Positions 16,918 through 46,669 of a stretch of 53,722 bases of DNA are shown piece by piece. Below the pieces are notes generated by a model. It did not search any database and had not been told where the DNA came from. It worked only from the letters and a program-made list of their open reading frames with translations. Source of the DNA: an uncultured Porphyromonadaceae bacterium (GTDB lineage: Bacteria; Bacteroidota; Bacteroidia; Bacteroidales; Muribaculaceae); NCBI GenBank assembly GCA_947175425.1, contig CAMWMR010000019.1:1-53722 (forward strand), read 5' to 3'. Every line of letters begins with the position of its first letter. The first letter of the stretch is position 1. Made by a program: the position numbers and the translations under genes.

Positions 16918-16922
16918 GCCTC

Positions 16923-21483: not shown

Positions 21484-23007
21484 ATGAAGCTGAATTCTGT
21501 ATATGACATCCTTTTTCTGAATAAAAAACTGGCTGTTTCTCAAAATGAAATGGACGATGTGGCTTCGTGCTATGAATTCCTTAAAGAATTTGCCAACAAC
21601 AAGGTTATATACGGAATCAATACCGGGTTCGGCCCTATGGCTCAATGGCGCGTGGACGACAGCCGTTTAAAAGAGTTACAGTACAATATAATCCGCAGCC
21701 ACGCCACAGGTGCCGGCGAGCCTTTATCCGACATTCAGGTAAAAGCCGCCATGATAGCCCGTACAGGCACTTTCCTTCAGGCTCGGTCGGGTATAAATCC
21801 AAGCGTAATAACTCTGCTGCAGGAATTTGTTAATCGCGATATTTTCCCTTTTATTCCCAAGCACGGCAGCGTTGGCGCCAGCGGCGACCTTGTTCAGCTT
21901 GCACACATTGCTCTTTGCCTCATAGGCGAGGGCAACGTACATCACAAGGGTCAGTGGCGGAATTCCAAAGCGGTTATGGATGAATACGGCCTCGAGCCCA
22001 TGCAGATATTTGTGCGCGAGGGACTGTCGGTTACAAACGGCACTTCCGTAATGACAGGCATTTCAATCGTAAACCAGTATTATGCCGAGAATTTGCTCAA
22101 GTATGCAACCATTGCCGGCGCGTGGATTAATGAAATTGCCGATTCATTCGATGATTACATGTCGGTAGAAGAAAATATTTGCCGTCGTCAGCCCGGGCAA
22201 CAGACAATAGCACATTGGCTGCGCGAAACAAGCGCCGGCAGCAAACATCTTCAAAAACGTGAGCACGAGCTTTACGACCCCGAAAAGAACCGCGATACTT
22301 ATTTCGAACACAAAGTGCAGGCATACTATTCGCTGAGATGTATCCCGCAGATTTACGGACCGGTATACGACACGCTTAAAAACACCGCCGAAGTTTTGGA
22401 AAACGAGCTGAACTCGGCTTGCGACAATCCCATTGTGGATCCGGTTGCAAAAAACATTTATCACGGAGGCAATTTCCATGGCGATTATATTTCTTTGGAA
22501 GCCGATAAAGTGAAAATTGCAATGGTTCGTGTTGCAATGACAGCCGAACGACAGCTTAACTATCTGTTTCACGACCGTATAAACGGCATACTGCCCCCGT
22601 TCCTCAACCTCGGTGTATTGGGACTGAACTACGGCATGCAGGCATGTCAGTTCACCGCCACATCCACTACCGCCGAATGCCAGACCCTTGCAATGCCGAA
22701 CTATGTACACAGTATTCCCAATAATAACGATAATCAGGATATTGTGAGCATGGGTACTAACAGCGCATTATTATGCCAAAAGGTAATAGACAACGCATAT
22801 CAGGTTGTCGCAATTCTTTATATTGCTCTTGCTCAGGCTACCGATTGCCTTGAGCTGGCAGGCAAACTCTCGCCTCGAACACGAGAACAGTACGAAGCAA
22901 TAAGGGCCATTTGTCCCAAGTTCATAGAGGACACTCCTTTCTATAACGAAATAGCTCTTACCGAAGAATATCTCCGAAATAATCCCATCCAATATCTGAA
23001 CTCATGA
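21484..23007 (+). CDS. Aromatic amino acid ammonia-lyase, probably tyrosine ammonia-lyase
   Basis: A 507-residue HAL/PAL/TAL-family lyase. The self-forming MIO cofactor triad Ala-Ser-Gly is at about 132-134 (GSVGASGDLVQLAH) and the catalytic Tyr at about 43 (VIYGINTGFGPMAQ). The active-site segment QYNIIRSHATGAGEPL resembles Flavobacterium tyrosine ammonia-lyases as I recall them, rather than housekeeping histidine lyases. It would deaminate tyrosine to p-coumarate, the aryl starter of flexirubin and aryl-polyene pigments. It is the first gene of the cluster and overlaps the next gene by ATGA. Confidence 0.88.
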   Translation: MKLNSVYDILFLNKKLAVSQNEMDDVASCYEFLKEFANNKVIYGINTGFGPMAQWRVDDSRLKELQYNIIRSHATGAGEPLSDIQVKAAMIARTGTFLQARSGINPSVITLLQEFVNRDIFPFIPKHGSVGASGDLVQLAHIALCLIGEGNVHHKGQWRNSKAVMDEYGLEPMQIFVREGLSVTNGTSVMTGISIVNQYYAENLLKYATIAGAWINEIADSFDDYMSVEENICRRQPGQQTIAHWLRETSAGSKHLQKREHELYDPEKNRDTYFEHKVQAYYSLRCIPQIYGPVYDTLKNTAEVLENELNSACDNPIVDPVAKNIYHGGNFHGDYISLEADKVKIAMVRVAMTAERQLNYLFHDRINGILPPFLNLGVLGLNYGMQACQFTATSTTAECQTLAMPNYVHSIPNNNDNQDIVSMGTNSALLCQKVIDNAYQVVAILYIALAQATDCLELAGKLSPRTREQYEAIRAICPKFIEDTPFYNEIALTEEYLRNNPIQYLNS

Positions 23008-23732
23008 ATTATGCATTAGTCACAGGAGGCTCTCGCGGACTCGGCGCTGCAATATGCAAACGTCTCGCCCTTCAGGGTCTCGGAGTAATAATCAATTACA
23101 GGTCGAATGAGGCCGCTGCCAAAGCTGTCGCCGACGATATAGAGTGCGCGGGAGGCTGCGCCGAGCTTCTGCCATTTGATGTTAGCTCGGAAGCTGAAGT
23201 TGATGCTGCCCTTGAGGATTGGGAAAACCGTCATCCGGAGGATCGTATAACAGTGTTGGTGAACAATGCGGGCATACGAGAAGATAATCTTCTCATCTTC
23301 ATGCAAACCGAACAATGGCACAATGTTATCAATACCACTCTCGACGGATTCTTTTTTGTAACCCGCAGGATACTGAAAGGAATGCTTACAAAACGTTACG
23401 GACGTATAATAAACATAGCCTCGCTGTCGGGTTTGAAAGGACTTCCGGGACAAGCCAACTACTCTGCCGCAAAAGCGGCTTTGATTGGCGCAACAAAAGC
23501 ACTTGCCCAGGAAGTTGCGCCGCGTAAGGTTACAGTAAACGCCATTGCTCCCGGATATATCAAATCCGATATGACCAAGGATCTTGACGAAAGCACCCTC
23601 AAAAAACAAGTACCGCTTGGCCGGTTCGGCGAGCCCGAGGAAGTTGCAGCACTTGTGGCCTTTCTTGCATCAAATGATTCATCGTACATTACAGGCGAAA
23701 CAATTTCAATAAACGGAGGATTGTACTCATGA
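23004..23732 (+). CDS. FabG-like 3-oxoacyl-ACP reductase
   Basis: A 242-residue short-chain dehydrogenase. The NAD(P)-binding motif is TGGSRGLG at the N-terminus; NNAG lies at about residue 88, the catalytic Ser in NIASLSG and Tyr-x-x-x-Lys in YSAAKAAL. It would reduce the beta-keto group of the growing polyene on the carrier protein, before dehydration. It is the only ketoreductase seen in the cluster, so each extension cycle should use it. It overlaps both neighbours by ATGA. Confidence 0.93.
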   Translation: MNYALVTGGSRGLGAAICKRLALQGLGVIINYRSNEAAAKAVADDIECAGGCAELLPFDVSSEAEVDAALEDWENRHPEDRITVLVNNAGIREDNLLIFMQTEQWHNVINTTLDGFFFVTRRILKGMLTKRYGRIINIASLSGLKGLPGQANYSAAKAALIGATKALAQEVAPRKVTVNAIAPGYIKSDMTKDLDESTLKKQVPLGRFGEPEEVAALVAFLASNDSSYITGETISINGGLYS

Positions 23733-24301
23733 GGTTTATAGTATTATTTTCATTGTTAGCAATTTCCGTTTTGTTGCCTCTACCTTCATTCGCCGAATGG
23801 GATAATGATACAATGATAGAATTTTCAAAGGCTAAGGAGTATCGATACATATTCAGTATGGATGGTACTGACTATTGTGGCATGGATTCAGTTGACTTTG
23901 TGGAGTATAGTGCTGCAAAGAATAACACGACTCCTGAAGATTACTCATTTTTTTTAAAATATATCGGTTATGAGTTGAAGAAGTCATTAAAAGAAGAGAC
24001 CAATAAACAGTTTTCCGAGAGTTCTTCAAGTAAGTATATGATTTACATTCATTTGGATGAAATTACCGCAAAGGCAGGCATGAAGATCTCTGTAACTACA
24101 TATGTGGATACTCCTGAGAATGGACAAACATTTAGATTTAAGGTAAATGATGGACGCTGGAATAAATTCGGTGTTTTACTTCAGGAGAATGCAAAAACAC
24201 TTGCAGAAAAAATTGCATCTAATGCCGTTTTTAAACGAATAAGGAAGTCTGTTTTGACACGTTCGCATAGAGATTCTGATCACGATCCACTTTACGATTA
24301 A
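23729..24301 (+). CDS. Unknown secreted protein, AT-rich
   Basis: A 190-residue protein with a clear signal peptide (about 1-22, ending SFA-E). I do not recognise the family. It has a helical middle (FFLKYIGYELKKSLKEETNK), a strand pair (KYMIYIHLDEITAKAGMKIS) and a C-terminal helix (LLQENAKTLAEKIASNAVFK). The same order is seen in the 175-residue protein at 25546, so the two are probably distant paralogues. Its codon use is visibly more AT-rich than its neighbours, a sign of later arrival or different selection. It is probably periplasmic. Confidence 0.7.
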   Translation: MRFIVLFSLLAISVLLPLPSFAEWDNDTMIEFSKAKEYRYIFSMDGTDYCGMDSVDFVEYSAAKNNTTPEDYSFFLKYIGYELKKSLKEETNKQFSESSSSKYMIYIHLDEITAKAGMKISVTTYVDTPENGQTFRFKVNDGRWNKFGVLLQENAKTLAEKIASNAVFKRIRKSVLTRSHRDSDHDPLYD

Positions 24302-24303
24302 AA

Positions 24304-25524
24304 ATGAATAGACGAGTTGTAATAACAGGCATGGGAATATGGTCGTGCCTCGGAGAAAATAAAGACGAAGTTAAAAACTCTCTGTATCAAGGCAAGTCGG
24401 GCATTGGAATCGAAAATGTCCGTCTTGAATACGGCTATCGGTCGGCCTTGACGGGAATCGTAGGAAAACCGAAGCTAAAAGGAATTTTAGACCGCCGTCA
24501 GCGAGTTTCACTGTCGGAGGAAGCCGAATATGCTTTTATGGCAGCCCGCGAAGCTTTCGAAGAAGCCAAAATAGATGACGATTACCTCAAAAACAACGAA
24601 GTTGGCATAATCTTTGGCAACGATTCTTCGGCAAAAGCCGTAATTGAAGCTCACGAGATTATGAAAGAGAAAAAGGACTCGGCATTAATAGGCTCCGGCT
24701 CAATCTTCCAGTCCATGAATTCCACTGTAAACATGAACCTGAGCACAATATTCCACCTCCGAGGAATAAACCTCACTGTAAGTGCGGCATGTGCAAGCGG
24801 CTCTCACTCTATCGGGCTGGCATACCTGCTCATCAAGCAAGGCTTGCAGGATACCGTACTGGCCGGAGGAGCACAGGAAACGAACTTTTATTCAATGTCA
24901 TCTTTCGATGCCCTCGGAACTTTCTCCACTCGCATGGAACATCCCGAACAGGCATCACGCCCGTTCGATAAAGACCGCGACGGACTCATCCCGAGCGGAG
25001 GCGCAGCAGCTATAGTGCTGGAAGAATACGAACACGCCATTGCACGAGGTGCATGCATCCTCGGCGAAGTAGTTGGTTACGGATTCTCATCCAACGGAGC
25101 CGGTATTTCGCAACCGAGCGAGGAAGGCTCCTTCATTGCCATGCAACGCGCCTTGGACGATGCCGGACTGACTCCGGCCGACATCGACTATGTAAACGCC
25201 CACGCCACATCTACTCCTCAGGGCGATATGTACGAGGCTCTTGCGCTGGATCGTATTTTCAACGGAACAAAAGCATTGATAAGCTCTACCAAATCCATGA
25301 CCGGCCACGAATGCTGGATGGCCGGAGCAAGTGAAGTAGTATACAGCCTCATCATGATGCACAACAATTTCGTTGCGCCAAACATCAACCTTGACGAACC
25401 TTGCGAGGCTGCAAAAAATCTTAATCTCGCTCGCAAAACCACCGATTGCACGGTCGACATTGTTCTTTCCAACTCATTCGGCTTCGGCGGAACAAACAGC
25501 GCTTTGGTGTTACGCAAGCTTTAA
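24304..25524 (+). CDS. Beta-ketoacyl-ACP synthase (KS), FabF-like
   Basis: A 406-residue ketosynthase with a full catalytic triad: Cys at about 163 (VSAACASGSHS), His at about 300 (NAHATSTPQGD) and His at about 335 (MTGHECWMAGAS). It would condense malonyl-ACP with the growing chain. The motif GHECWMAGASE differs from the usual GHxxGAAG, which may shape partner choice. It lies early in the cluster with the ketoreductase. It is one of three complete KS genes here; which one starts and which extends cannot be decided by sequence alone. Confidence 0.92.
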   Translation: MNRRVVITGMGIWSCLGENKDEVKNSLYQGKSGIGIENVRLEYGYRSALTGIVGKPKLKGILDRRQRVSLSEEAEYAFMAAREAFEEAKIDDDYLKNNEVGIIFGNDSSAKAVIEAHEIMKEKKDSALIGSGSIFQSMNSTVNMNLSTIFHLRGINLTVSAACASGSHSIGLAYLLIKQGLQDTVLAGGAQETNFYSMSSFDALGTFSTRMEHPEQASRPFDKDRDGLIPSGGAAAIVLEEYEHAIARGACILGEVVGYGFSSNGAGISQPSEEGSFIAMQRALDDAGLTPADIDYVNAHATSTPQGDMYEALALDRIFNGTKALISSTKSMTGHECWMAGASEVVYSLIMMHNNFVAPNINLDEPCEAAKNLNLARKTTDCTVDIVLSNSFGFGGTNSALVLRKL

Positions 25525-25545
25525 TCCTCTAAATTACCTGTTACT

Positions 25546-26073
25546 ATGAAAAAAATCCTTGTATCAGCAGCATTGGCAGTTCTTGCGCTTCCTGTTTTTG
25601 CAGGAACTAAAACAGTATTCGGCACCACAGCCCTGCTCAACGGAGAGAAAAACATTCCCGTTACACTCGACTGGAAAGAAGCCGTTTATGCAAACGGCGG
25701 CGATATAAACGATTTTCTTCTCAGGGCACCGCGCGACGAAAATTGGGAAAGCAAATCTTTGGCGTATTTCCTTAAAGAGGCCAACGAAAAAGTTTTGGAA
25801 TACGGCATACGCTTAGTACCTGCCGAAGCCGGCGACAATGCCAAATACCGCATTGTAATTTCCCCTTCGTCAATCTCGAAAAGCGGCGATATAAAAGGTG
25901 AAATTCTCATTATGCCTGTCAACGGCAACGACCCTCTGACATCCGTTGCTTTTTCATCCGACGAACGCGATGATGACGACAAAATAGCTTTCCGCGACCA
26001 ACTCGAGAACATTGGCGAAAACTTTGGCAAGCTTATAAAGAAAGAGATAAAAGCGCAGCGCAAAGCCAAGTAA
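25546..26073 (+). CDS. Unknown secreted protein, 175 residues
   Basis: It has a signal peptide (about 1-19, ending VFA-G). The mature part has a strand pair (KYRIVISPSSISKSGDIKGE) and a Lys-rich C-terminal helix (ENFGKLIKKEIKAQRKAK). The order of elements follows the protein at 23729. Family not recognised. Location in the periplasm or outer membrane is likely. Its place among chain-building genes suggests a role in moving or shielding the hydrophobic product, which is inference. Confidence 0.7.
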   Translation: MKKILVSAALAVLALPVFAGTKTVFGTTALLNGEKNIPVTLDWKEAVYANGGDINDFLLRAPRDENWESKSLAYFLKEANEKVLEYGIRLVPAEAGDNAKYRIVISPSSISKSGDIKGEILIMPVNGNDPLTSVAFSSDERDDDDKIAFRDQLENIGENFGKLIKKEIKAQRKAK

Positions 26074-26126
26074 CAAAGCATTCGATTTGCACAACGGTAT
26101 AACCACACCTAATATCCGACCCTTGT

Positions 26127-27224
26127 ATGAACCTGTTCCCCGAATTAAAAAAGAAATATACAAAGGACAGCCTTTCGGCAAGAGAGGCCCAGCGCATGGC
26201 CGAATTCATTGCATTCGGGCCTGTAATTTTCCAAACCGCCCGTATAATGGCAAAGTGGGGAATTCTGGACATGCTACGCAACAGCGACAGCGGAATGACA
26301 ATAGCCGAAGTTGCCGAAAAAGCGTCAATATCGGTTTATGCGGCCAAATGCCTGCTGGAGGCTTCGTTGTGCATTGGCATTGTATTAGTAAACGATAATA
26401 CCGACAGGTTTACATTATCCAAAACCGGCTGGTTTCTAATCAACGACCCGGCAACTAAGGTAAACATCGACTTTAACCACGATGTCAACTACCTCGGTTG
26501 GTTCAATCTTGAAGAATCGCTGCAACAAGGAAAACCTATAGGATTAAAAACTCTCGGCGACTGGCCTACCGTTTACGAAGGCCTCTCCTCTCTCCCCAAA
26601 CATATTCAGGACAGTTGGTTCGGGTTCGATCATTTTTACTCCGACAACTCTTTTGATACCGCCTTGAAAATAGTTTTTGCCGACAAACCCCGTACACTGC
26701 TGGATGTTGGCGGAAATACCGGACGGTGGGCGCTCCGCTGCGTTGAACACGACAAAGATGTAAACGTTACTATTCTCGACTTGCCTCAGCAAATCGGGAT
26801 GATGAAAGAGAACATAAAGGGACACACCGGAGCCGAAAGAATCGAGGGGCTCGGCGTAAACCTGCTTGATGAAAACAGCCCTCTCCCTACCGACAAAAAA
26901 TTCGAGGCTATATGGATGAGTCAGTTCCTTGACTGTTTCAGCGAGGAACAGATTGTCGGCATTCTTCGCCGGGCCTCCAAAATGATGGACAATGATTCTC
27001 GTCTTTACATAATGGAAACCCTTTGGGATAGGCAGAAATATGAGCCGGCCGCTCTGTGCCTCACCCTTACAAGCCTCTATTTCACCGCAATTGCAAACGG
27101 CAACAGCAAAATGTACCACTCCGAGGACATGGAGCGGCTCATTGAAAACGCCGGTCTCGAAATAGAGACAATACACGATTTCATCGGCCAGGGTCACAGC
27201 ATAATTGTTTGTAAACTAAAATAA
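26127..27224 (+). CDS. SAM-dependent O-methyltransferase
   Basis: A 365-residue methyltransferase with a winged-helix dimerisation N-terminus (about 20-110: IAEVAEKASISVYAAKCLLE) and a Rossmann domain. The AdoMet motif DVGGNTG is at about 193-199, and the acidic loop is TILDLPQQIGMMKE. The pattern fits the O-methyltransferase family of PF00891 type. It probably methylates the aryl head group or its hydroxyl in the pigment, as seen in known aryl polyenes. The site is inferred. Confidence 0.85.
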   Translation: MNLFPELKKKYTKDSLSAREAQRMAEFIAFGPVIFQTARIMAKWGILDMLRNSDSGMTIAEVAEKASISVYAAKCLLEASLCIGIVLVNDNTDRFTLSKTGWFLINDPATKVNIDFNHDVNYLGWFNLEESLQQGKPIGLKTLGDWPTVYEGLSSLPKHIQDSWFGFDHFYSDNSFDTALKIVFADKPRTLLDVGGNTGRWALRCVEHDKDVNVTILDLPQQIGMMKENIKGHTGAERIEGLGVNLLDENSPLPTDKKFEAIWMSQFLDCFSEEQIVGILRRASKMMDNDSRLYIMETLWDRQKYEPAALCLTLTSLYFTAIANGNSKMYHSEDMERLIENAGLEIETIHDFIGQGHSIIVCKLK

Positions 27225-27244
27225 TATAATAAATCATTATCATA

Positions 27245-27490
27245 ATGGAACGCAAAGAAATTGAAAGCAAAGTTCGCGATTTTCTTATCGAAGATTTGGA
27301 AGTAGATGAAGAAAAAATTCTACCCGAAGCACGACTCAAAGAGGATGTCGGTATCGACAGCCTCGATTTTGTCGACATTGTGGTTATTGTAGAAAAAACT
27401 TTCGGCTTCAAAATCAAACCCGAAGAAATGGCCGGAGTGATAACTCTCGACGATTTCTACGCCTACATTGAGAAAAAGGTTAACGCCTGA
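27245..27490 (+). CDS. Acyl carrier protein 1
   Basis: An 81-residue acyl carrier protein. The phosphopantetheine Ser is at about 39 in DVGIDSLDFVDI. It carries the growing chain as a thioester. It lies between the methyltransferase and the LpxL-like acyltransferase, and a second carrier protein at 30928 suggests separate starter and extender carriers. No phosphopantetheinyl transferase was found in the window. Confidence 0.93.
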   Translation: MERKEIESKVRDFLIEDLEVDEEKILPEARLKEDVGIDSLDFVDIVVIVEKTFGFKIKPEEMAGVITLDDFYAYIEKKVNA

Positions 27491-27504
27491 TACTTAGCGG
27501 CTCA

Positions 27505-28398
27505 ATGGGAGAACTCAAGCACGACAAATGGGTAGGGACGACCTACGGCAACGACGGCATGCACAAATGGCTTATCAAAATGTTGAAAGTCGTTGATGTG
27601 CGGCTTATCTATGCCTTTGCATCCGTGTTTGTAGTTCCTCCCACAATGCTCATAAACGGCAAAGCGCGAAAGGCCATATACAATTTCTACCGCACCGGAT
27701 TCCGATACAACAAGCTGAAGTCTTTGTGGATGACATATAAAAATCATTGCGCTTTTTCACAGGTTGTTATCGATAAATTCGCCATGTATGCCGGCAAAAA
27801 ATTTCGCATAAGCATTACCGGCTACGAACATTTTCGTTCTTTGACGGAACAAACTCCGGGATTTGTCCAGTTGAGTTCGCATATAGGCAACTATGAAATT
27901 GCCGGATACTCTCTCGTAGCCGATAAAAAACGTGTGAATGCCTTGGTTTTCGGAGGGGAGAAAGCTGCCGTAATGATGAACCGCAGCAAACTGTTCCAAA
28001 AGAACAACATACGCATGATTCCGATGTCGTCCGATATGACTCACCTCTTCCTTTTGGACGAGGCTCTGTCGAACGGAGAAATACTCAGCATGCCTGCCGA
28101 CCGGATTTTCGGGTCTCAAAAAGCGTATTCTCTGGAGCTGCTGGGAAGAAAAGCGCAATTTCCTCAGGGGCCGTTTGTTATGGCTGCTATCCGAGATGTC
28201 CCCGTGCTGTTTGTATCGGTAATGAAAACCGGGCTCAAAAGCTACCATATAACAGTTAGTCCTATAGAGTGTCCCGCCTCGGGAAACTCTAAAAGCAAAG
28301 CCGCCGATATGGCTCGCCGATATGTGGAACTTCTGGAAGGGACAGTTCGCAAACATCCGGCGCAGTGGTATAATTATTTCAATTTTTGGGAAAATTGA
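27505..28398 (+). CDS. LpxL/HtrB-like lipid acyltransferase
   Basis: A 297-residue acyltransferase of the lauroyl-acyltransferase type. The HX4E motif lies at about 126-131 (SSHIGNYEIAG), with an N-terminal hydrophobic stretch (about 33-51) for membrane attachment. In LpxL this fold moves an acyl chain from ACP to lipid A. Here it may move the finished polyene from the carrier protein to a membrane glycolipid. It overlaps the next gene (TGATG). Confidence 0.85.
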   Translation: MGELKHDKWVGTTYGNDGMHKWLIKMLKVVDVRLIYAFASVFVVPPTMLINGKARKAIYNFYRTGFRYNKLKSLWMTYKNHCAFSQVVIDKFAMYAGKKFRISITGYEHFRSLTEQTPGFVQLSSHIGNYEIAGYSLVADKKRVNALVFGGEKAAVMMNRSKLFQKNNIRMIPMSSDMTHLFLLDEALSNGEILSMPADRIFGSQKAYSLELLGRKAQFPQGPFVMAAIRDVPVLFVSVMKTGLKSYHITVSPIECPASGNSKSKAADMARRYVELLEGTVRKHPAQWYNYFNFWEN

Positions 28399-28838
28399 TG
28401 GAATTTGATAAAATCGACATACACGAACTTCTCCCGCAGCAGGAGCCGTTTGTCATGATTGGCAAGCTGCTCTACTGCGACATGAAAAAAACGCAGACTC
28501 TCACCGAAATCAAAGCCGGCAACATATTCGTCGACAACAATGAATTTAGCGCGTCCGGTATTATCGAGAACATCGCCCAGACCTGCGCCGCCCGCATAGG
28601 TTACATCAATAAATACATTCTCAAAAAAGACATTCAGTTAGGATTCATAGGAGCTATACGGAATTTGAACCTGCATCGTTATCCCAAAACAGGCGAAACA
28701 ATAAGCACTTCAATTACTGCATTGGAAGAAGTTTTCGGGATGACACTGGTTACCGCCACCGTAAAGGCAGGCGACGAACTGATAGCCGAAGCAGAGATGA
28801 AGATAGCCGTAAAAGAGGAACCTGAAAAAAGCGAATAG
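28398..28838 (+). CDS. Hotdog-fold dehydratase-like subunit with Glu but no catalytic His (ApeP-like)
   Basis: A 146-residue FabZ-related hotdog protein; the start at 28398 (MEFDKIDIHELL) is preferred because ATG overlaps the previous stop. The catalytic Glu of FabZ is kept at about 57 (SGIIENIAQTCA), but the stretch that should hold the HFPG His reads VDNNEFSA with no His. The hotdog at 34844 keeps the His and lacks the Glu. The two would form one composite active site. Aryl-polyene systems are known to use a heteromeric ApeI:ApeP dehydratase; assignment to those names is by analogy. Confidence 0.8.
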   Translation: MEFDKIDIHELLPQQEPFVMIGKLLYCDMKKTQTLTEIKAGNIFVDNNEFSASGIIENIAQTCAARIGYINKYILKKDIQLGFIGAIRNLNLHRYPKTGETISTSITALEEVFGMTLVTATVKAGDELIAEAEMKIAVKEEPEKSE

Positions 28839-28839
28839 C

Positions 28840-29259
28840 ATGAAAAAACTATCGGCATCCCGTCAGTTCGATATACGCTTCAGCGAGGTCGATTCCATGA
28901 ACATTGTGTGGCATGGATCATATCCTTTGTATTTTGAGGATGCACGCGAGGCATTCGGCAAAAAGTACGGGCTCGGATACATGACAATTTTCTCAAACGG
29001 ATACTACGCGCCCCTGGTCGAGCTTTCGTTCAAATACAAAAAGCCTCTTGTATACGAAATGAAGCCCACCATAATTATAACATACGTGCCTACGGAATCC
29101 GCCAAGATTGTTTTCGACTACGAAATAGTTGACGAAAACGACGGCTCTGTTATTGCGACAGGTCGTTCAGTACAGGTTTTTATGGATAAAGACTATCAGC
29201 TCGTATGGGATAATCCCGAATTTTACCGTAAATGGAAAGAAAAATGGGAGGTATTGTGA
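28840..29259 (+). CDS. YbgC/4-hydroxybenzoyl-CoA-type acyl thioesterase
   Basis: A 139-residue hotdog thioesterase. The typical active-site segment is EVDSMNIVWHGSYPLYFEDA, with the catalytic Asp in EVDSMN and VWHGxY. It would release a chain from carrier protein or remove faulty products. The stop lies inside the start region of the next ketosynthase, so the two are translationally linked. Confidence 0.88.
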   Translation: MKKLSASRQFDIRFSEVDSMNIVWHGSYPLYFEDAREAFGKKYGLGYMTIFSNGYYAPLVELSFKYKKPLVYEMKPTIIITYVPTESAKIVFDYEIVDENDGSVIATGRSVQVFMDKDYQLVWDNPEFYRKWKEKWEVL

Positions 29260-30392
29260 TTACAAAAATAGCCGATAATATTATATCCCCTCTCGGAACA
29301 AGTACCGACGAGAATTTCCGTGCCATCTGTAACGGTAACAGCATGCTCCGCGGGCATTCCGGAGCTTTCGGCTTGCCCGAAGATTTTTGCGGTTCACTAT
29401 TTAACCGTAACGAGCTTGAGTCGCGTATAAATACGGAAATCGCCAATAGCGAAACTTTCACTTTTTTCGAAAAGCTGTGCATATTCTCGGCAAAAAAAGC
29501 TATTGAAGATTGCAGACTGTCGGCCTGCGAAGCCGATGTGCTTTTCATACTCTCCACTACAAAAGGAAACGTTGAATATCTTGCCGAGTCAGCAACAGAC
29601 GAACGTTGTTTCCTTGCCGGCTCTGCGAAAAAAATAGCGGAATATTTTAAAAACACAAATCCTCCGCTCGTAGTATCCAACGCCTGCATCTCAGGTGTTT
29701 GTGCACAAATTGCGGCTGTTCGGGCTTTGTTGAGCGGCCGATACCGCCATGCTATAGTAATCGGTTGCGATGTCCTTTCAAAATTCATTGTATCCGGGTT
29801 TCAGTCATTCAAAGCTCTCAGCCCCGAACCTTGCAAACCTTACGACAAGGAGCGTATAGGCCTCAACCTCGGAGAAGCTGCCGGTACTATTATTCTTAGC
29901 GCTACAGCCGACAATGAAAAAGCTCAATGGCAATATATTGCAGGAGCTATTCACAACGATGCCAATCATATTTCCGGCCCGTCACGTACAGGAGAAGGTG
30001 CATTCCGTGTAATTCTCGATATTCTCAAGGAAATTTCAACCGACGAAATAGCATTCATCAATACACACGGGACATCGACAGCCTACAACGACGAAATGGA
30101 ATCCATTGCACTCCACCGGGCGCAATTGGATGACGTTCCCGTAACCGGACTGAAAGGGAACTACGGACACACACTCGGGGCAGCCGGAATTATTGAAACT
30201 ATTTTATCGATGAAAGCGGTCGACAACAAGCTTGTTTTGCCTACAAAAGGCTTCGAAAATTCCGGGACAAGCTATCCTGTGAATGTTTCGGCCGAAACTC
30301 GCACAACCGACAAAACGGCATTTATAAAAATATTGTCGGGATTCGGCGGTTCAAATGCCGGAATAGCCTATCGGAAAGGAGGCCTGCAATGA
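29232..30392 (+). CDS. Beta-ketoacyl-ACP synthase (KS)
   Basis: A 386-residue ketosynthase if the first ATG is used; the ATG at 29244 (MGGIVITKIAD) is also likely. The catalytic set is complete: Cys at about 152 (SNACISGVCAQ), His at about 279 (INTHGTSTAYND) and His at about 313 (GNYGHTLGAAG). The N-terminus is more divergent than in the other two synthases. It may be the priming or a special extending KS. It overlaps both neighbours. Confidence 0.9.
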   Translation: MERKMGGIVITKIADNIISPLGTSTDENFRAICNGNSMLRGHSGAFGLPEDFCGSLFNRNELESRINTEIANSETFTFFEKLCIFSAKKAIEDCRLSACEADVLFILSTTKGNVEYLAESATDERCFLAGSAKKIAEYFKNTNPPLVVSNACISGVCAQIAAVRALLSGRYRHAIVIGCDVLSKFIVSGFQSFKALSPEPCKPYDKERIGLNLGEAAGTIILSATADNEKAQWQYIAGAIHNDANHISGPSRTGEGAFRVILDILKEISTDEIAFINTHGTSTAYNDEMESIALHRAQLDDVPVTGLKGNYGHTLGAAGIIETILSMKAVDNKLVLPTKGFENSGTSYPVNVSAETRTTDKTAFIKILSGFGGSNAGIAYRKGGLQ

Positions 30393-30916
30393 AAACACTT
30401 GCACATGTACGCATTACTCCGACCGATACAAGCGTTAACGGTGCTACTGTTTCCTCGGCATCGCTTGCGGGTCTATACAGGGAATTTGCAGGAGATTATC
30501 CCAAGTTTTTCAAAATGGATTCTCTTTGCAAACTCGGATTTATGGCGGCGGAATTGTGTCTTAAAAACTTGTCGGCCGACGAAAAAGAAAACACAGCCGT
30601 AATACTGTTCAACCGTAACGGTTCTCTTGTTACCGACCGGAACTATCAAAAAACCATAGAGTCCGACAACTATTTTCCAAGCCCGGCACTGTTTGTCTAC
30701 ACTCTCGCAAACATAGTGACAGGAGAAATTGCAATACGTCATAAAATATACGGAGAAACCTCTTTTTATGTTCTTGACTCTCGCGATGAAACACTTATGG
30801 ATGAAATAGTAAGCGACACATTGCTTACATCTTCTCCGCGGTATATTCTCACAGGATTCGTAGAATATGAGAACGAGCAAAATTATATCGCCGATATAAA
30901 ATTAGTAACAAAATAA
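30389..30916 (+). CDS. Ketosynthase-like stub protein without catalytic residues
   Basis: A 175-residue protein. The stretch YPKFFKMDSLCKLGFMAAE and FPSPALFVYTLANIVTGEIA recall the first half of the ketosynthase thiolase fold (the region up to the nucleophile elbow), but no catalytic Cys or His motif is present and the second half is absent. It may be a structural or chain-length partner of one KS. It starts inside the previous KS stop (ATGA). Function not known. Confidence 0.7.
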   Translation: MKTLAHVRITPTDTSVNGATVSSASLAGLYREFAGDYPKFFKMDSLCKLGFMAAELCLKNLSADEKENTAVILFNRNGSLVTDRNYQKTIESDNYFPSPALFVYTLANIVTGEIAIRHKIYGETSFYVLDSRDETLMDEIVSDTLLTSSPRYILTGFVEYENEQNYIADIKLVTK

Positions 30917-30927
30917 AAATACCACAT

Positions 30928-31185
30928 ATGGACAATCTGATTTTACAACTTAAAAATCAAATTATTGAAGTTCTCAATCTTGAGGACATGACTGCCGACG
31001 ACATCGCCACCGATGCGCCTCTGTTTGGCGAAGGCCTCGGGCTTGATTCAATCGATGCTCTCGAACTCATTGTTCTTCTTGAACGTGAGTACGGCATCAA
31101 GCTGTCGAATCCTGCCGAAGGAAAACAAATATTCAGCTCCGTAGCATCTATTGCCGATTTCGTTAGCAAGAACCGTAAAAAATAG
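30928..31185 (+). CDS. Acyl carrier protein 2
   Basis: An 85-residue acyl carrier protein with the phosphopantetheine Ser at about 41 in GLGLDSIDALELIV. It is clearly different from the carrier protein at 27245 (GIDSLD). It lies two bases before a ketosynthase gene. Two carriers in one cluster fit a scheme with separate loading and extension carriers. Confidence 0.93.
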   Translation: MDNLILQLKNQIIEVLNLEDMTADDIATDAPLFGEGLGLDSIDALELIVLLEREYGIKLSNPAEGKQIFSSVASIADFVSKNRKK

Positions 31186-31187
31186 AT

Positions 31188-32396
31188 ATGGGCAAAAGAG
31201 TATTCGTGACAGGAGCCGGAATTATTTCCGCTTTGGGCACCGGCAACGATGCCACCCTCAAGGCATTGCTTGAGGGGAAATCCGGTATCGGAAAAATTAC
31301 CTGCATCGACACCGAACACACCGAATTCCCGGTAGGAGAAGTTGCCATGTCCAATTCCGAAATGTCACGTATACTCAACGTCAATTACCCTGTTAACGGT
31401 CTCCGCACAGTCCTTCTTGGAATATTCGCTGCCCGGGAAGCCCTGGTGTCGGCCTCTCTGTCACCCGAGCTGCTTCGTTCGGCGGCATTCATAAGCGGAA
31501 CAACTGTCGGGGGCATGGACAAAACCGAACGTCATTTCAAAACTGTTTTCGATACCAACGTCGAAACCGAGGACAGTCTCGAGATGAAATTCAACGATTG
31601 CGGCTACTCTACCGAACTTATAGCCGACAGTCTCGGCAAATTCAGAATGGTAACCACAAGCTCCACTGCATGTTCATCTGCTGCAAACGCCATAATTCTC
31701 GGTGCCAACCTTATAAAGGCCGGTATCGTGGACATTGCTGTTGTAGGAGGGGCGGAGGCACTCACAAAATTTCATCTCAACGGCTTCAATACCCTCATGA
31801 TTCTCGACAAAGAACAGTGCCGGCCGTTCGATAAAAACCGTTCGGGTATAAACCTCGGAGAGGGTGCGGCTTATTTAGTTCTTGAAAGCGAAAAATCTGC
31901 CAAAAGCAGAGAAGTTGGTATTATGGCCGAACTGAGCGGATATGCCAATACTTGCGATGCATTTCATCAGACGGCGACTTCCGAAAACGGCGAGGGCGCA
32001 TATAAGGCCATGCTTAAGGCAATGGAAATGGCAAGGCTTACCCCAGCCGACATCGACTATATCAACGCTCACGGCACAGGAACTCCCAATAACGATGAAA
32101 CAGAACTGGCCGCCATGGAACGTATATGGACCGATAAATTGCCCCTATTCTCTTCCACAAAATCATTGACCGGCCACACGACAAGCGCTTCCGGATCTAT
32201 AGAATCCGTTATCTGTCTGCTGGCGCTACAAAACGGTTTTGTCCCAGGAAATTCCGGTTGGAGAACTCCCATTAAAGAAAATGCAAATCCGGTTGTCGAA
32301 AACACGCCACTCCCCGAAATACGGAACATAATAAACAATTCTTTCGGTTTCGGCGGCAACGACTCTTCTATTATATTCTCAAAATACATTCCATAG
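31188..32396 (+). CDS. Beta-ketoacyl-ACP synthase (KS alpha)
   Basis: A 402-residue ketosynthase with Cys at about 162 (TSSTACSSAANA), His at about 295 (NAHGTGTPNND) and His at about 330 (SLTGHTTSASG). It is followed within three bases by a KS-like protein that lacks the nucleophile, the arrangement of KS/chain-length-factor pairs in type II polyketide systems, and so is the best candidate for the main extending KS. Confidence 0.93.
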   Translation: MGKRVFVTGAGIISALGTGNDATLKALLEGKSGIGKITCIDTEHTEFPVGEVAMSNSEMSRILNVNYPVNGLRTVLLGIFAAREALVSASLSPELLRSAAFISGTTVGGMDKTERHFKTVFDTNVETEDSLEMKFNDCGYSTELIADSLGKFRMVTTSSTACSSAANAIILGANLIKAGIVDIAVVGGAEALTKFHLNGFNTLMILDKEQCRPFDKNRSGINLGEGAAYLVLESEKSAKSREVGIMAELSGYANTCDAFHQTATSENGEGAYKAMLKAMEMARLTPADIDYINAHGTGTPNNDETELAAMERIWTDKLPLFSSTKSLTGHTTSASGSIESVICLLALQNGFVPGNSGWRTPIKENANPVVENTPLPEIRNIINNSFGFGGNDSSIIFSKYIP

Positions 32397-32398
32397 AA

Positions 32399-33750: not shown

Positions 33751-33757
33751 TATAAAT

Positions 33758-35215: not shown

Positions 35216-35218
35216 TAT

Positions 35219-37192: not shown

Positions 37193-38697
37193 GCAAAACT
37201 TGTGTTATAATAGGAGGCGGTATCGGAGGACTTTTCACAGGAGCCTTTCTTGCAAAAAACGGATACGAAGTAACTGTTTTGGAAAAGAATGCAATAATCG
37301 GAGGCGGACTGCAGTGTTTTCGCCGACACGGCAAAGTTTTTGAAACCGGCATGCACATTGCCGGAGGTTTTATTGAGGGCGGAAGTCTTAACAAAATTTG
37401 CAGCTATCTCGGCATAATGGACAGGCTTAAGATTCAGCATGTCCCTGCCGAATGTATGGACGAGCTCTACTACCGGCGCACCGGCGAAGTATTCCGTATA
37501 GCTTCCGGCCGTGAAGGTTTCATCGACAGTCTCTCCGAATATTTCCCCGAAGAAAAGCAAGGCATAACAGCCTATGTAAATGAGCTGTACAGAATAAAGG
37601 ACGAAGTAAAACTCTTTTCCCTGCAGGAACAAAGCGACGATTCGTTCATGAATTGGGAAAAACTTCTTGTTCCTGCCGACGAACTTATCGAGAAATTCAT
37701 CAGTAATGAAAAACTCAGGGAAATACTGGCCTACCTGAATCCTTTGTACAGTGGCGTAAAAGGGCATACTCCCGCCTATATTCACGCACTGCTCAATGTC
37801 CTTTACATAAACGGAGCATCACGTTTTATAGGCGGAGCTCAACAGCTTGCCGCTCTCCTGAAAGAAGTTATAGAGAACAATGGCGGCCAGGTATTGGCAG
37901 GATGTGAAGCAGCCTACATCGATGTTACCGACAGACATTTGAATTTTGTTGAGGATACCGACGGAAATCGTTTTACTGCCGACTGTTATGTTTCGGCTAT
38001 ACATCCAGCAATGATGGCTAAAATGGTTACAACAGGGACTTTCCGTAAAAGCTTTATACATCGTCTCAATGAAATTCCGCTCACAAGTTCGGCATTCTCG
38101 GTGTACATCGACCTCAAGCCCGATTCGTTCCCGTATATAGACCACACCTGCTATTTCATGGAAGATTACGGAAATATGTGGAACCAGGAAAAACATAACT
38201 CCGACAAAGCTCCCGTATCTTTCATGTATATGACTCCTCCCGATGAAAACCAAGGCCGGTTTGCATCGCGATTGCTTATAATGTGCCTCATGGATTTTGA
38301 AGAGGTCCGCAAATGGGAGCACACCGAAACCGGAAAACGCGGCGAGGAATATGAGCACTGGAAAAATCATTTTGCCCAACAAGCCATAAACCTGCTGTCG
38401 CATCGCTACCCCGGGCTCCGCTCTCAAATTGAACGCGTATACGCTGCTTCTCCGCTGACAATCCGCGATTTCTACAACACCAAAAACGGAGCAATCTACG
38501 GTTATCGCAAAGATTGCCGCGACATGTTCTACTCACGCCTCCCGGTATACACAAAAGTTGATAATCTTTTTCTCACCGGCCAAAACATTATTCTTCACGG
38601 CATATGCGGAGTCCCTCTCACCGCCATAATAACAGCCGAAGAAATATTGGGCCGAAACGTTTTAATACGAGCAATTAATGAAGCTGTATCCCAATAA
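37189..38697 (+). CDS. CrtI/phytoene-desaturase-like FAD-dependent oxidoreductase
   Basis: A 502-residue flavoprotein. The dinucleotide motif is VIIGGGIGGLFTGAFLAKNG at 7-26, followed by VLEKN. The C-terminal flavin motif is NLFLTGQNIILHGICGVPL. It belongs to the phytoene desaturase/retinol saturase superfamily. In this cluster it may desaturate, isomerise or hydroxylate the polyene. It overlaps the GT2 fusion by 4 bases and the hydrolase by 20. Confidence 0.88.
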   Translation: MSKTCVIIGGGIGGLFTGAFLAKNGYEVTVLEKNAIIGGGLQCFRRHGKVFETGMHIAGGFIEGGSLNKICSYLGIMDRLKIQHVPAECMDELYYRRTGEVFRIASGREGFIDSLSEYFPEEKQGITAYVNELYRIKDEVKLFSLQEQSDDSFMNWEKLLVPADELIEKFISNEKLREILAYLNPLYSGVKGHTPAYIHALLNVLYINGASRFIGGAQQLAALLKEVIENNGGQVLAGCEAAYIDVTDRHLNFVEDTDGNRFTADCYVSAIHPAMMAKMVTTGTFRKSFIHRLNEIPLTSSAFSVYIDLKPDSFPYIDHTCYFMEDYGNMWNQEKHNSDKAPVSFMYMTPPDENQGRFASRLLIMCLMDFEEVRKWEHTETGKRGEEYEHWKNHFAQQAINLLSHRYPGLRSQIERVYAASPLTIRDFYNTKNGAIYGYRKDCRDMFYSRLPVYTKVDNLFLTGQNIILHGICGVPLTAIITAEEILGRNVLIRAINEAVSQ

Positions 38698-39580
38698 AAC
38701 GTCAATATTGCTTGTGCTGCTTTTCATAACGCACATCCTCTGCCCTGCCCGTAATTCCGCTGTAAATATATGGGAAGGTACCGAGTGTTCCGCCAATGTA
38801 AAGCTTACACCTTTCCCGGCCAAGAACGAAAATGCTCCGGCAATAATAGTATGTCCCGGCGGAAGCTATTTCTGGCTCGATCGCAAAACCGAAGGATATG
38901 GAGTTGCCCAATGGTTACAGGCTAACGGAATTTCGGCTTTCGTTCTTGAATATCGCGTCGGAGGCGTACCTGCATTCATAAGCCATTACCGTATACTCTC
39001 GCGTGGAAACCGATACCCCGATATGTTGCAGGACGTTCAACGAAGCATTCAGCTTGTCCGCGAAAATGCCGATGTATACGGAATAAATCCCGACAATGTA
39101 GGTGTAATGGGATTTTCGGCCGGAGGACATCTCACAATCATGGCCGGACTATTTTTCGATTCACACGTGCTCAACATTTTCGGCATAGAACCTGCGGTAT
39201 CTGTAAAACCCGATTTCATAGCCCCTGTCTACCCGGTGGTGAGCATGGTGGACAAAAGTACACACAAACGGTCGCGACGAGGTCTTCTTGGCGAGGGACG
39301 GCAGATAAGTCAACAAATGAAAGATTCGCTCTCATTGGAAAAACATATCCGTCCCGACATGCCTCCGTGTTTTCTAATGAATTGCATCGACGATCCCATT
39401 GTGCACTACCGCAACTCCGAGCTGCTCGATTCGGCAATGACTGCACAAAACATTCCGCATTTATATCTGCAATATAAAACCGGCGGACACGGATTCGGCG
39501 CTTCTCCCGAAAAAACATCTGCGGAGGCCGATAACTGGAAAAACGAATTTCTCGAATGGTTGAAAACAATTCTAAAATGA
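38678..39580 (+). CDS. Secreted alpha/beta-hydrolase (acetyl-esterase type)
   Basis: A 300-residue hydrolase with a signal peptide (about 1-25). The oxyanion motif CPGGSY is at 59-64, the nucleophile Ser at about 147 (GFSAGGH), and the C-terminal His in TGGHGFG. The closest patterns are BD-FAE/acetylxylan-esterase-like enzymes. Its location inside the pigment operon suggests an ester-cutting step in the periplasm, which is inferred. It overlaps the ligase gene by ATGA. Confidence 0.85.
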   Translation: MKLYPNKTSILLVLLFITHILCPARNSAVNIWEGTECSANVKLTPFPAKNENAPAIIVCPGGSYFWLDRKTEGYGVAQWLQANGISAFVLEYRVGGVPAFISHYRILSRGNRYPDMLQDVQRSIQLVRENADVYGINPDNVGVMGFSAGGHLTIMAGLFFDSHVLNIFGIEPAVSVKPDFIAPVYPVVSMVDKSTHKRSRRGLLGEGRQISQQMKDSLSLEKHIRPDMPPCFLMNCIDDPIVHYRNSELLDSAMTAQNIPHLYLQYKTGGHGFGASPEKTSAEADNWKNEFLEWLKTILK

Positions 39581-40881
39581 AATATTCCCATAACGACATA
39601 GAATTTTGCTCCCCAAGCGAAATTATCCATTTCCAAAACAGGAAATTGCAGGAAGCTCTACGTTACCTTGAACAGAATTCGCCTTTTTATCAACGAATGT
39701 TCCGTGAGAACAACATTGATATATCTGCGATTAAAACTGTCGAAGACCTTACTGCAATCCCTTTCACCGAGAAAAAAGATCTGCAAGAGTTTAACAGCGA
39801 TTTCCTTTGTGTCCCTGCCGATAAAATTGTGGACTACATAACAACCTCAGGAACTTTGGGCGACCCTGTTACATTCGGCTGCACCGACAACGACCTGGAA
39901 CGTCTCGCTTATAACGAAATGAAATCCTTCAGCTGTGCCGGTCTTGCTCCGGGAAACATAGTACAGCTAATGGTTACTCTCGACAAGCGTTTCATGGCCG
40001 GAATGGCTTATTTCCTCGGAATACGAAAGCTTGGCGCAAGCATAATCCGTGTAGGCAACGGAATGCCGGAACTGCAGTGGGACACAATTCTCAAACTCAA
40101 GCCCGATACCCTTATGTGCGTACCCTCATTTATTCTCAAACTTATAGAGTACGCCGAAGCACACAATATCGATTATAAAAATTCAAGCGTCAAACGAATA
40201 ATCGGTATAGGCGAAGGGCTGCGAAATCCCGATTTTTCTCTTAATCTGCTCGGAAACCGAATAAAAGAAAAATGGGATGTGGAGCTGTTCGCAACCTATT
40301 CTTCTACCGAAATGGGCGCTACTTTCTCGGAATGTCCTTTCGGGTGCGGAGGACATGTACATCCCGAGCTCATTATAGTGGAAATTATAGGCGACGACAA
40401 CAAACCTGTAAAAGACGGCGAAACCGGCGAAGTGGTTGTAACAACGCTTGGCGTGGAAGGCATGCCTTTGCTGCGCTTCCGCACCGGCGACCTCAGCAGC
40501 AAAATAAGCGAAAAGTGTGCCTGCGGAAGAAACTCGTTCCGGCTCACACCCTTAATGGGGCGAAAAAACAATATGATTAAACTGAAAGGCACAACCTTAT
40601 ATCCCCCCGCTATTAACGATGTCCTCGACAACACGCCATATGTTGTTAATTACGTTGTAATTGCACAGACAGGGTTCGCAGGCACCGACGAGGTAATTGT
40701 TAAAGCAGGAATAGCATCACGACAGAATTTCGATGTCATAAAGGATCTAAAGGACCGCTTCCGTTCACGAATTCGCGTGGCGCCAATCGTGGAAGTTCTC
40801 GACCCGGATGATGTTGCAAAAATAAACAACCCCGCCAACAATCGTAAACCGGTTAAATTCATCGACCGGCGAAGCTGCTGA
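39577..40881 (+). CDS. PaaK-like adenylate-forming ligase
   Basis: A 434-residue ligase starting at 39577 (MKYSHNDIEFCSP), chosen because ATG overlaps the hydrolase stop. The nucleotide-binding loop is TTSGTLGDPV; further motifs are TYSSTEMGATFSECPFG, RTGDLSSKI and the Lys-containing GRKNNMIKLKG. Phenylacetate-CoA-ligase relatives activate aryl acids. It should activate the p-coumarate made by the lyase at 21484 and load it on CoA or a carrier protein. Confidence 0.88.
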   Translation: MKYSHNDIEFCSPSEIIHFQNRKLQEALRYLEQNSPFYQRMFRENNIDISAIKTVEDLTAIPFTEKKDLQEFNSDFLCVPADKIVDYITTSGTLGDPVTFGCTDNDLERLAYNEMKSFSCAGLAPGNIVQLMVTLDKRFMAGMAYFLGIRKLGASIIRVGNGMPELQWDTILKLKPDTLMCVPSFILKLIEYAEAHNIDYKNSSVKRIIGIGEGLRNPDFSLNLLGNRIKEKWDVELFATYSSTEMGATFSECPFGCGGHVHPELIIVEIIGDDNKPVKDGETGEVVVTTLGVEGMPLLRFRTGDLSSKISEKCACGRNSFRLTPLMGRKNNMIKLKGTTLYPPAINDVLDNTPYVVNYVVIAQTGFAGTDEVIVKAGIASRQNFDVIKDLKDRFRSRIRVAPIVEVLDPDDVAKINNPANNRKPVKFIDRRSC

Positions 40882-40903
40882 ATTGCCAAACACACATGTT
40901 TCA

Positions 40904-45828
<4,925 letters not shown>

Positions 45829-45842
45829 GGATATTTGAATAA

Positions 45843-45940
45843 TAAGTAAGCGTTGTAAATCAGTCTATTATTATAGTTTGGTTGAAAATCGCCTGCAGGC
45901 TACCGGAATATGGTATAAACTAATTTTCAACACTTACTTA
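45843..45940 (+). repeat. 18-bp near-perfect inverted repeat with a third partial copy
   Basis: TAAGTAAGCGTTGTAAAT at 45843-45860 matches the reverse complement of 45923-45940 at 16 of 18 bases. Within the 62-base spacer, GTTGAAAAT at 45881-45889 also pairs perfectly with 45923-45931. The right arm can thus pair with either left copy. It lies between the esterase and the next gene. Confidence 0.7.
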
Positions 45941-45991
45941 CAATAATTGCCCTTGCAAAGCGTTTATCAGATAAATACAATTCTCTTCATC

Positions 45992-46669
45992 ATGAAACGC
46001 CTGCTAAAACCTATCTTCCTCATTCCCGCCATTATATCCTGCATCACACTCTCTGCTTCAGCTCAAAACGATGTCGCCGACACTCGTCCCATGTGGGGTA
46101 TCAAAGCCGCTTTCGACGTAAATATCCCTGGAAAATGGCACGGTGATGCAGGTAGCGTTTCCATGTTCAGGCACGGTTTCGGAGCTACTTTCGGTGCGGT
46201 ATATAACATATACTTGGGTAAAAGTTTTTACATCGAGCCGGGCGCTTCGTTGTTCTACGACTCCTACTCCTACAAAAATCTTGTAATATCGGGCGATGCC
46301 GGAAATATCATCGAAGAGGATCCGTCGCTGTACAAACTCGGAATCCGAATCCCCGTAGTAGTCGGATACTCTTTCAGTATCAGCGACAATTTCGCAATGT
46401 CGGTTTATACCGGCCCCGAGTTGAGCTACGCTTTCACAGGTGACATCAAAATAAAAGATTCCGAGCTGCAACACAGTTCCGATATTTCGTTGTTCGGCGA
46501 ATACGGAACCCAACGTCGTGTGGACTGTGCGTGGAAAGTCGGTGTAGGATTTCCCGTAAACCAATGGCTTGTAAGCATTGAAGCTGCCATAGGAATGACC
46601 GACCTCCTCAAATCAGGAATGTCATTCCGCGAAAACCGTTGCTCAGTTGCTCTTACACGCTATTTCTAA
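45992..46669 (+). CDS. Outer-membrane beta-barrel protein (PorT/OmpW-like family)
   Basis: A 225-residue protein from the ATG at 45992 (MKRLLKPIFLIP), which gives a signal peptide ending SASA-Q at about 25. The rest has alternating strands typical of an eight-strand barrel (GFGATFGAVYNIYLGKSFYI, NFAMSVYTGPELSYAF) and ends in aromatic F (RCSVALTRYF). It is the last gene on the plus strand and is separated from the esterase by 163 bases with the inverted repeat, so it may or may not belong to the cluster. Confidence 0.85.
   Translation: MKRLLKPIFLIPAIISCITLSASAQNDVADTRPMWGIKAAFDVNIPGKWHGDAGSVSMFRHGFGATFGAVYNIYLGKSFYIEPGASLFYDSYSYKNLVISGDAGNIIEEDPSLYKLGIRIPVVVGYSFSISDNFAMSVYTGPELSYAFTGDIKIKDSELQHSSDISLFGEYGTQRRVDCAWKVGVGFPVNQWLVSIEAAIGMTDLLKSGMSFRENRCSVALTRYF

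Follow-up and report, generated by a model that had tools for sequence, protein, structure and literature searches.

In Chitinophaga pinensis, the flexirubin (flx) cluster runs from flxA to flxY, whose products have been assayed as a tyrosine lyase and a 4-coumarate-CoA ligase (PMC3992019). The gene table of the Escherichia coli aryl-polyene (APE) cluster (apeA-R) lists ApeD, the glycosyltransferase/acyltransferase ApeJ, ApeK, ApeL (LolA), ApeM (RND) and the LolB-like ApeN, and in it neither a lyase nor an esterase appears (PMC8253772). Aryl-polyene clusters are also in print for Muribaculaceae (PMC9007364), rumen Prevotella (PMC8241843) and gut Bacteroides (PMC12940132). Here we analyzed a locus of this kind on a contig of 53,722 bases, hereafter the window, from a Bacteroidales genome (G000:C19; genome 2.50 Mb, completeness 99.99%, contamination 0.58%). 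The genome is probably of Muribaculaceae, as its closest named loci come from uncultured Muribaculaceae, Porphyromonadaceae and Bacteroidales. We consider it probable that this locus is an flx-type operon for an aryl-polyene lipid whose product lacks the resorcinol half of flexirubin. As the kind of cluster is already known, what we add is the genome-wide lack of DarB and DarH, two couples of ketosynthase (KS) and chain-length factor (CLF), and two predicted secreted serine esterases of pigment loci.

Genes were assigned with Pfam and NCBIfam models at curated NCBIfam cut-offs, and figures are given as score/cut-off in bits. From the lyase gene at 21484 to the end of the exporter gene at 44530, we found 24 open reading frames (ORFs), all on the + strand, with neighbors overlapping by up to 29 bp or separated by no more than 53 bp. 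A 25th gene, encoding EstB, starts on the same strand 17 bp past the exporter end (Table 1). FlxA, FlxB, FlxJ, LolA2 and FlxY score over their NCBIfam cut-offs. As matching genes recur in roughly conserved order at other Bacteroidales loci, a chance grouping is excluded.

An earlier note, made from sequence alone, had read this stretch as an aryl-polyene/flexirubin-like cluster with lipid-attachment and export genes of its own, and ORF inspection and family searches agree with its coordinates and gene content. The tight packing over 23 kb also stands, with 24 rather than about 23 genes from lyase to exporter. We recovered the lyase and ligase it named for the starter, two carriers (PF00550 at 27245 and 30928), one reductase, two hot-dog dehydratase genes, a methyltransferase, a CrtI-like oxidoreductase, GT2, LolA, MMPL and three acyltransferase domains (LpxL-like at 27505; PlsC-like on the genes at 35219 and 40883). 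It had overlooked the thioesterase (28840), the EamA/ArnE-F-like protein (33397), the LolB2-like protein (34377), EstA (38678), EstB (44548) and two secreted small proteins (23729 and 25546).

With the flexirubin clusters of C. pinensis and Flavobacterium johnsoniae, the window shares FlxA in first place, FlxY near the end, a ketoreductase (KR), several KSs, dehydratases, LolA, a glycosyltransferase, an acyltransferase and an exporter. It differs in having EstA and EstB and in lacking DarB and DarH, the C. pinensis sequence itself being outside the comparison. FlxA and FlxY of the flexirubin pathway are present in the genome, and DarB and DarH are not. The Bacteroides xylanisolvens arylpolyene cluster pBGC-12, likewise from gut Bacteroidales, is reported as similar and syntenic to the C. 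pinensis flexirubin cluster; it is likened to flexirubin in a main text in which the word resorcinol was not found (PMC12940132), and we compared it by description only. The APE-type core of KS/CLF, KR, two dehydratases and acyl carrier protein (ACP) is present, as is the set of glycosyltransferase/acyltransferase, LPLAT, LolA, LolB-like protein (weakly matched) and MMPL exporter. The E. coli cluster has the same KS with CLF, two dehydratases, two ACPs, thioesterase, LPLAT, glycosyltransferase/acyltransferase, LolA- and LolB-like proteins and RND/MMPL exporter, whereas the window differs by its tyrosine lyase and CoA ligase for the starter, second KS couple, CrtI-like enzyme and esterases.

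FlxY exceeds its cut-off in 18 of 198 same-family and 2 of 16 same-genus genomes, and two more of the latter (G481, G393) have a FlxY-less form of the cluster. This patchy distribution is as expected from loss and transfer. Prevotella amnii, P. aurantiaca, P. jejuni, P. histicola and Segatella baroniae also carry clusters of related type.

The resorcinol branch

In a genome-wide search, the model of the dialkylresorcinol synthase DarB (StlD/DarB family, NF005293) matched only pieces of FabH, with a best score of 38.6 bits against a cut-off of 450, and that of the acyltransferase DarH (NF053550) had 0 matches; FabH is the single KAS III of the genome. DarA-like queries from locus L083 and genome G224, which are DarA by position and match no family model, gave E values of 0.06 or worse against the window, the only sequence searched with them. 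The earlier note had recognized no resorcinol genes, and a dar gene elsewhere had been named beforehand as the finding that would count against its reading; the genome-wide search for DarB and DarH found none.

Among 295 genomes searched in the order, 58 carry FlxA over cut-off, and within these DarB exceeds its cut-off in 30 (not in the other 28) and DarH in 34. Seven of the 58 fall outside a bracket of 90% completeness and 5% contamination, so some DarB misses are possible. In control genomes, the FlxA, DarB and FlxY models each exceeded cut-off in 1 of 14, and DarH in 0 of 14. As DarB over cut-off is missing in 28 of the 58, naming such clusters "flexirubin" is unsafe.

These counts also bear on whether the window makes a true flexirubin, with a resorcinol half from unrecognized or unassembled genes esterified to the polyene. 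That the core genes are flexirubin equivalogs, that DarB accompanies FlxA in 30 of 58 genomes and that the C. pinensis dar genes are located elsewhere in its genome (PMC3992019) would all fit such a product. Nevertheless, with an essentially complete genome, one KAS III that itself accounts for the best DarB score, no DarH match, and a same-family genome (G235) that is also without DarB over cut-off and without DarH, we regard a true flexirubin as very improbable.

The earlier note had favored a glycolipid over a resorcinol ester. Its case against the ester is supported, but the attachment genes do not prove a glycolipid, as Dar-bearing clusters share these genes. In L083 (uncultured Prevotella RUG14357), DarB and DarH exceed cut-off and a DarA-like gene lies between the GT2-acyltransferase/CrtI genes and the EstA/MMPL genes; in G224, DarB and DarH over cut-off adjoin FlxY, and the cluster also contains LPLAT, LolA, GT2 and MMPL-acyltransferase. 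We therefore rejected lipid-attachment genes as a mark of Dar-less clusters. A GT2-acyltransferase fusion as the reason for Dar loss was likewise not supported, as L083 has both.

Chain extension, lipid attachment and export

The KS family has four matches in the window and one in the rest of the genome, the latter presumably the housekeeping FabF. The three full KSs (24304, 29232, 31188), each with Cys-His-His, and the two KS-like partners (30389, 32399) are as the earlier note had them. In 35 of 82 loci (27 under a strict test of identical complete ORFs), a single ORF encodes the homologues of KS2 and of the 175-aa product of 30389, and for KS3 and 32399 this holds in 47 of 87 loci (38 under the strict test); these are counts of loci, some near-identical, and not of independent events. 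The 30389 product has no match in Pfam or NCBIfam. Its AlphaFold model (31 sequences; predicted local distance difference test score, pLDDT, 90.6) matches KS and CLF chains in Foldseek, including the ishigamide CLF and ApeC of the ApeO-ApeC complex (6qsp_B, E 3.8e-05). From the fusions in relatives and this model, we conclude that the window encodes two KS/CLF couples plus one free KS.

The acyltransferase domain changes place among loci: in some GT2 carries it, in some the exporter does, and in some it is present twice, once on each protein. Both layouts occur within the family of the window. Twenty-five exporters lack the domain, and as the loci of 24 of them have a GT2 ORF that carries it, the domain appears to serve the same pathway wherever it is placed. 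A tree of 99 domains (45 on GT2 proteins, 54 on exporters) needs 4 label changes, and its starred branches force at least 2, with the bootstrap not settled; the acyltransferase was probably fused to GT2 on more than one occasion. In E. coli, deletion of ApeD or ApeJ left late intermediates (PMC8253772). This result, together with the mobility of the domain, makes the acyltransferases the likeliest attachment enzymes. In loci L132 (Fulvivirga) and L040 (G165), the MMPL exporter is joined to an acyltransferase and an intact methyltransferase and GT2 carries DUF2062, whereas the window GT2 has no DUF2062 and forms a fusion with an acyltransferase. A family search of the C-terminal tail of the window exporter found no family and no recognizable methyltransferase; this tail looks like a decayed methyltransferase.

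The gene identities, the fusions and the genome-wide lack of DarB and DarH were observed directly, and from them we infer the chemistry, lipid anchor, function and order of steps of the pathway. FlxA would convert tyrosine to 4-coumarate, and FlxY would activate it. The KS/CLF couples (29232 with 30389, 31188 with 32399), with the free KS, KR, split dehydratase and two ACPs, would extend this starter to an omega-(4-hydroxyphenyl)polyene acid, with FlxJ acting as methylase. As DarB and DarH are absent, this acid would not be esterified to a dialkylresorcinol. The LpxL-like and PlsC-like acyltransferases could transfer it to a lipid that GT2 would decorate, after which the MMPL protein would export the product and LolA/LolB would carry it on to its place in the outer membrane, in line with the proposal for E. 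coli APE. The product is expected to be a yellow pigment, for which the antioxidant role suggested in the earlier note is putative.

Several observations weigh against this scheme. The export and attachment genes are common to Dar-positive clusters too and do not fix the acceptor. CrtI, EstA, EstB and the small proteins sp190 and sp175 have no counterpart in the E. coli model. The LolB2-like protein and both dehydratase genes score under NCBIfam cut-offs, and in locus L125 neither the exporter nor GT2 has an acyltransferase.

Other arrangements of these modules were also seen. L154 (G316) encodes at 14148-16919 a 924-aa GT2-acyltransferase-methyltransferase with a recognizable methyltransferase, apparently an independent fusion. 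Five genomes under the genus label g196 (G369, G350, G329, G399 and G385; loci L215, L218, L219, L220 and L196) have a separate LolA-LolB-like-EstA-MMPL module, mostly led by KS1, on a contig or at a place apart from FlxY. The genome of the window also has an orphan exporter module (G000:C18:45923-54847; L194, L195) with MMPL-acyltransferase, a TonB-dependent-receptor-like protein, a small lipoprotein-like protein, an EstB paralogue and a DUF4421 beta-barrel. At 92-100% identity, this module matches the last part of the pigment cluster of G435, a genome of another genus, and it stops close to the end of its contig; a second FlxY or KS set was looked for in the genome and not found. It would be a recent transfer, a remnant or a mis-binned piece.

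Two esterases at the pigment locus

EstA has a signal peptide, as read from its sequence, and its Ser147, Asp239 and His271 are invariant in 69 of 69 aligned proteins. Homologues with at least 40% identity occur in 51 of the 67 named loci that have five or more core genes and in 55 of all 80 named loci, many of which are incomplete. A search of the 198 same-family genomes gave 23 places with E about 4e-79 or better (the next at 2.6e-35), and 22 of these lie beside pigment genes; the exception, G369:C31, is the least similar (47%). In the FlxA-positive genomes, close orthologues were present in 11 of 58, all 11 in pigment loci as judged by neighbors, and 8 further genomes have matches of at most 41% on another contig than FlxA or distant from it (some assemblies are fragmented). 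An exclusive link of EstA to pigment loci, drawn from the FlxA-positive genomes alone, was thus overturned by the larger search. DarB over cut-off is missing in 10 of 11 EstA-positive and 18 of 47 EstA-negative genomes (Fisher p = 0.002; kinship ignored, the 11 coming from 6 families). We do not claim a causal association, as G242 and L083 carry both.

EstB has a CE1 fold and an N-terminal CBM48 (PF00756 and PF02922 over cut-off), and the best PDB match and the top Foldseek matches of its model (pLDDT 85.0) are feruloyl esterases. With 6rzn and wtsFae1B (8bbp), EstB shares the fold, the catalytic triad and 37-38% identity (Foldseek alignments), and it differs from them by its place in a pigment operon and by about 40 extra residues between the triad serine and aspartate. 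The triad S278/D380/H409 is present in 15 of 15 proteins (12 pigment-locus, 3 background). The nucleophile and Asp motifs are 92-97 residues apart in all 12 distinct pigment-locus proteins that could be measured (L079, L084 and L089 could not) and 53-57 residues apart in all 15 background homologues, which are free of the insert. The insert covers residues 307-350 or so and is mostly helical in the model, at a pLDDT of about 60-75. In the 198 same-family genomes, 11 places match with E below 1e-120 (the next at 9.4e-79), and each of the 11 has an MMPL exporter gene of this type no more than about 3 kb away; the exporter of G430 has no acyltransferase, and in G435 and G000:C18 two genes separate exporter and EstB. 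EstB is not universal, with a subfamily member in 4 of 18 FlxY-positive family genomes.

As both folds are those of carbohydrate esterases, EstA and EstB could be ordinary enzymes of that kind that landed in the operon and have no role in the pigment. This would agree with the many clusters that have no EstB, with the clusters fetched for G416, G439 and G316 (and the main cluster of G385), in which EstA is missing, and with the position of G369:C31 away from pigment genes. However, subfamily members are in pigment loci at 22 of 23 (EstA) and 11 of 11 (EstB) places, whereas none of the 12 background EstB homologues that were fetched from the 101 listed has a pigment gene within about 5 kb (at L209 only 1.9 kb is visible on one side). 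Furthermore, the triads are invariant. In L086 and L125, EstA and GT2 form a fusion in which a hydrophobic stretch separates them, and in G003 a single 550-aa frame holds both. We therefore think it rather unlikely that the esterases are bystanders.

The similarity of EstB to feruloyl esterases also raises the possibility that EstB (and EstA) free ferulate or p-coumarate from plant fiber, giving a partly dietary starter that FlxY would load. Five same-family genomes (G025, G383, G481, G347, G305) have FlxY-less clusters that retain EstA and EstB, with a different AMP ligase adjoining EstB in all five. In the three of these clusters that are visible up to the 5' end (G025, G383, G481), the FlxA lyase was not seen, and a FlxA-family search of G025 gave no match at all. 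On the other hand, the window retains its own tyrosine lyase, and the FlxY-less G324, G393 and G386 have the same alternative ligase behind the exporter and no EstB. The low frequency of EstB among FlxY-positive family genomes, the absence of the insert from all 15 background homologues measured, and the lack of a xylanase among the window genes named by Pfam also speak against salvage, which we judge improbable. In G383, conjugative-transposon genes (TraM, TraN over cut-off) adjoin the lyase-less, FlxY-less cluster (L188/L189), and the G025 stretch (L186) likewise has such genes at its edge. G383 has a second partial copy with a CrtI piece, EstA, exporter, EstB and ligase (L199).

We suggest that the two proteins may cut or move aryl-polyene esters. 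As no aryl-polyene ester is shorter than a coumaroyl ester, an insert-bearing CE1 enzyme behind the exporter would be a candidate polyene (trans)esterase. Mycolyltransferases act behind MmpL3, and EstB behind the MMPL exporter might be likened to them. We tentatively raise the possibility that Dar-less host-associated Bacteroidales recruited two feruloyl/acetyl-esterase-like enzymes as dedicated envelope aryl-polyenoyl (trans)esterases, EstB moving or cutting the acyl group from the exported lipid to its final acceptor. We found no literature pairing a feruloyl esterase with an aryl polyene in a search that left preprints and most subscription papers outside.

Operon limits and significance

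Table 1. Genes of the pigment locus and the gene that follows it.
Feature	Position	Strand	Basis
FlxA, tyrosine ammonia-lyase (starter 4-coumarate)	21484..23007	+	NF053541 810/700
FlxB, ketoreductase	23004..23732	+	NF053542 393/340
sp190, predicted secreted small protein	23729..24301	+	no Pfam/NCBIfam family; signal peptide read from sequence
KS1, stand-alone FabB/F-like ketosynthase	24304..25524	+	Pfam/NCBIfam; Cys-His-His read from sequence
sp175, secreted small protein adjoining KS1	25546..26073	+	no Pfam/NCBIfam family
FlxJ, methyltransferase	26127..27224	+	NF053543 600/560
Acyl carrier protein 1	27245..27490	+	PF00550
LpxL-like acyltransferase, putative ApeD-like role	27505..28398	+	PF03279 50.6 bits
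Dehydratase subunit 1, FabZ-like hot dog	28386..28838	+	NF000582 30.9 bits, under cut-off 113
4HBT thioesterase, putative ApeK-like role	28840..29259	+	PF13279
KS2, ketosynthase	29232..30392	+	PF02801/PF00109; Cys-His-His; fused to 30389 homologue in some loci
Small KS-like, chain-length-factor-like partner of KS2	30389..30916	+	AlphaFold pLDDT 90.6; Foldseek KS/CLF
Acyl carrier protein 2	30928..31185	+	PF00550; NF006617 82.2/70
KS3, ketosynthase	31188..32396	+	Pfam/NCBIfam; Cys-His-His read from sequence
Chain-length-factor partner of KS3	32399..33409	+	PF13723; fused to KS3 in some loci
EamA / ArnE-F-like small membrane protein, possible flippase	33397..33750	+	PF00892; NF002816 51.9, under cut-off 99
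LolA2, periplasmic carrier	33731..34405	+	NF053544 223/125
LolB2-like outer-membrane acceptor	34377..34847	+	NF053540 23 bits, under cut-off 60
Dehydratase subunit 2, FabA/Z-like	34844..35215	+	PF07977
GT2 - PlsC-like acyltransferase fusion, ApeJ-like layout	35219..37192	+	PF00535 + PF01553; acyltransferase tree
CrtI-like FAD oxidoreductase	37189..38697	+	PF13450; TIGR02733 108.7, under cut-off 549.7
EstA, predicted secreted BD-FAE-type serine esterase	38678..39580	+	PF20434; triad S147/D239/H271
FlxY, 4-coumarate-CoA ligase	39556..40881	+	NF053551 688/520
MMPL exporter + fused PlsC-like acyltransferase + C-terminal tail	40883..44530	+	PF03176 + PF01553
EstB, CBM48-CE1 ferulic-acid-esterase-like serine esterase with insert	44548..45828	+	6rzn E=9.1e-78; model
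Beta-barrel, last gene of interval	45947..46669		118-bp gap separates it from EstB

The 118-bp gap upstream of 45947 holds an A/T-rich inverted repeat (GTTGAAAAT...ATTTTCAAC), and a terminator scan of this gap found none; the beta-barrel gene may be outside the cluster. The genes of sp190 and sp175 flank KS1. sp175 was matched in 6 of 198 same-family genomes including its own, strongly in 5, and lies near pigment genes in G406, G025, G383 and G385 and in loci L079 and L089 (Prevotella jejuni, P. histicola). Among loci L037-L198, no homologue of sp190 was found outside its own genome.

The Bacteroidales -7 element is TAnnTTTG, and TAACTTTG at 21424-21431, 52 bp upstream of the FlxA start codon, fits it. 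A T5orf172-domain protein (20118-20756) is encoded directly upstream of the pigment operon, and further upstream (14833-19961) is a type III restriction-modification pair (N6/N4 methylase at 14833; Res with endonuclease domain at 16923).

Among the FlxA-positive Bacteroidales genomes sampled, many of the products must differ from flexirubin. The esterases would provide a handle on the attachment partner of the polyene in Bacteroidales and on the route to its final place in the outer membrane.

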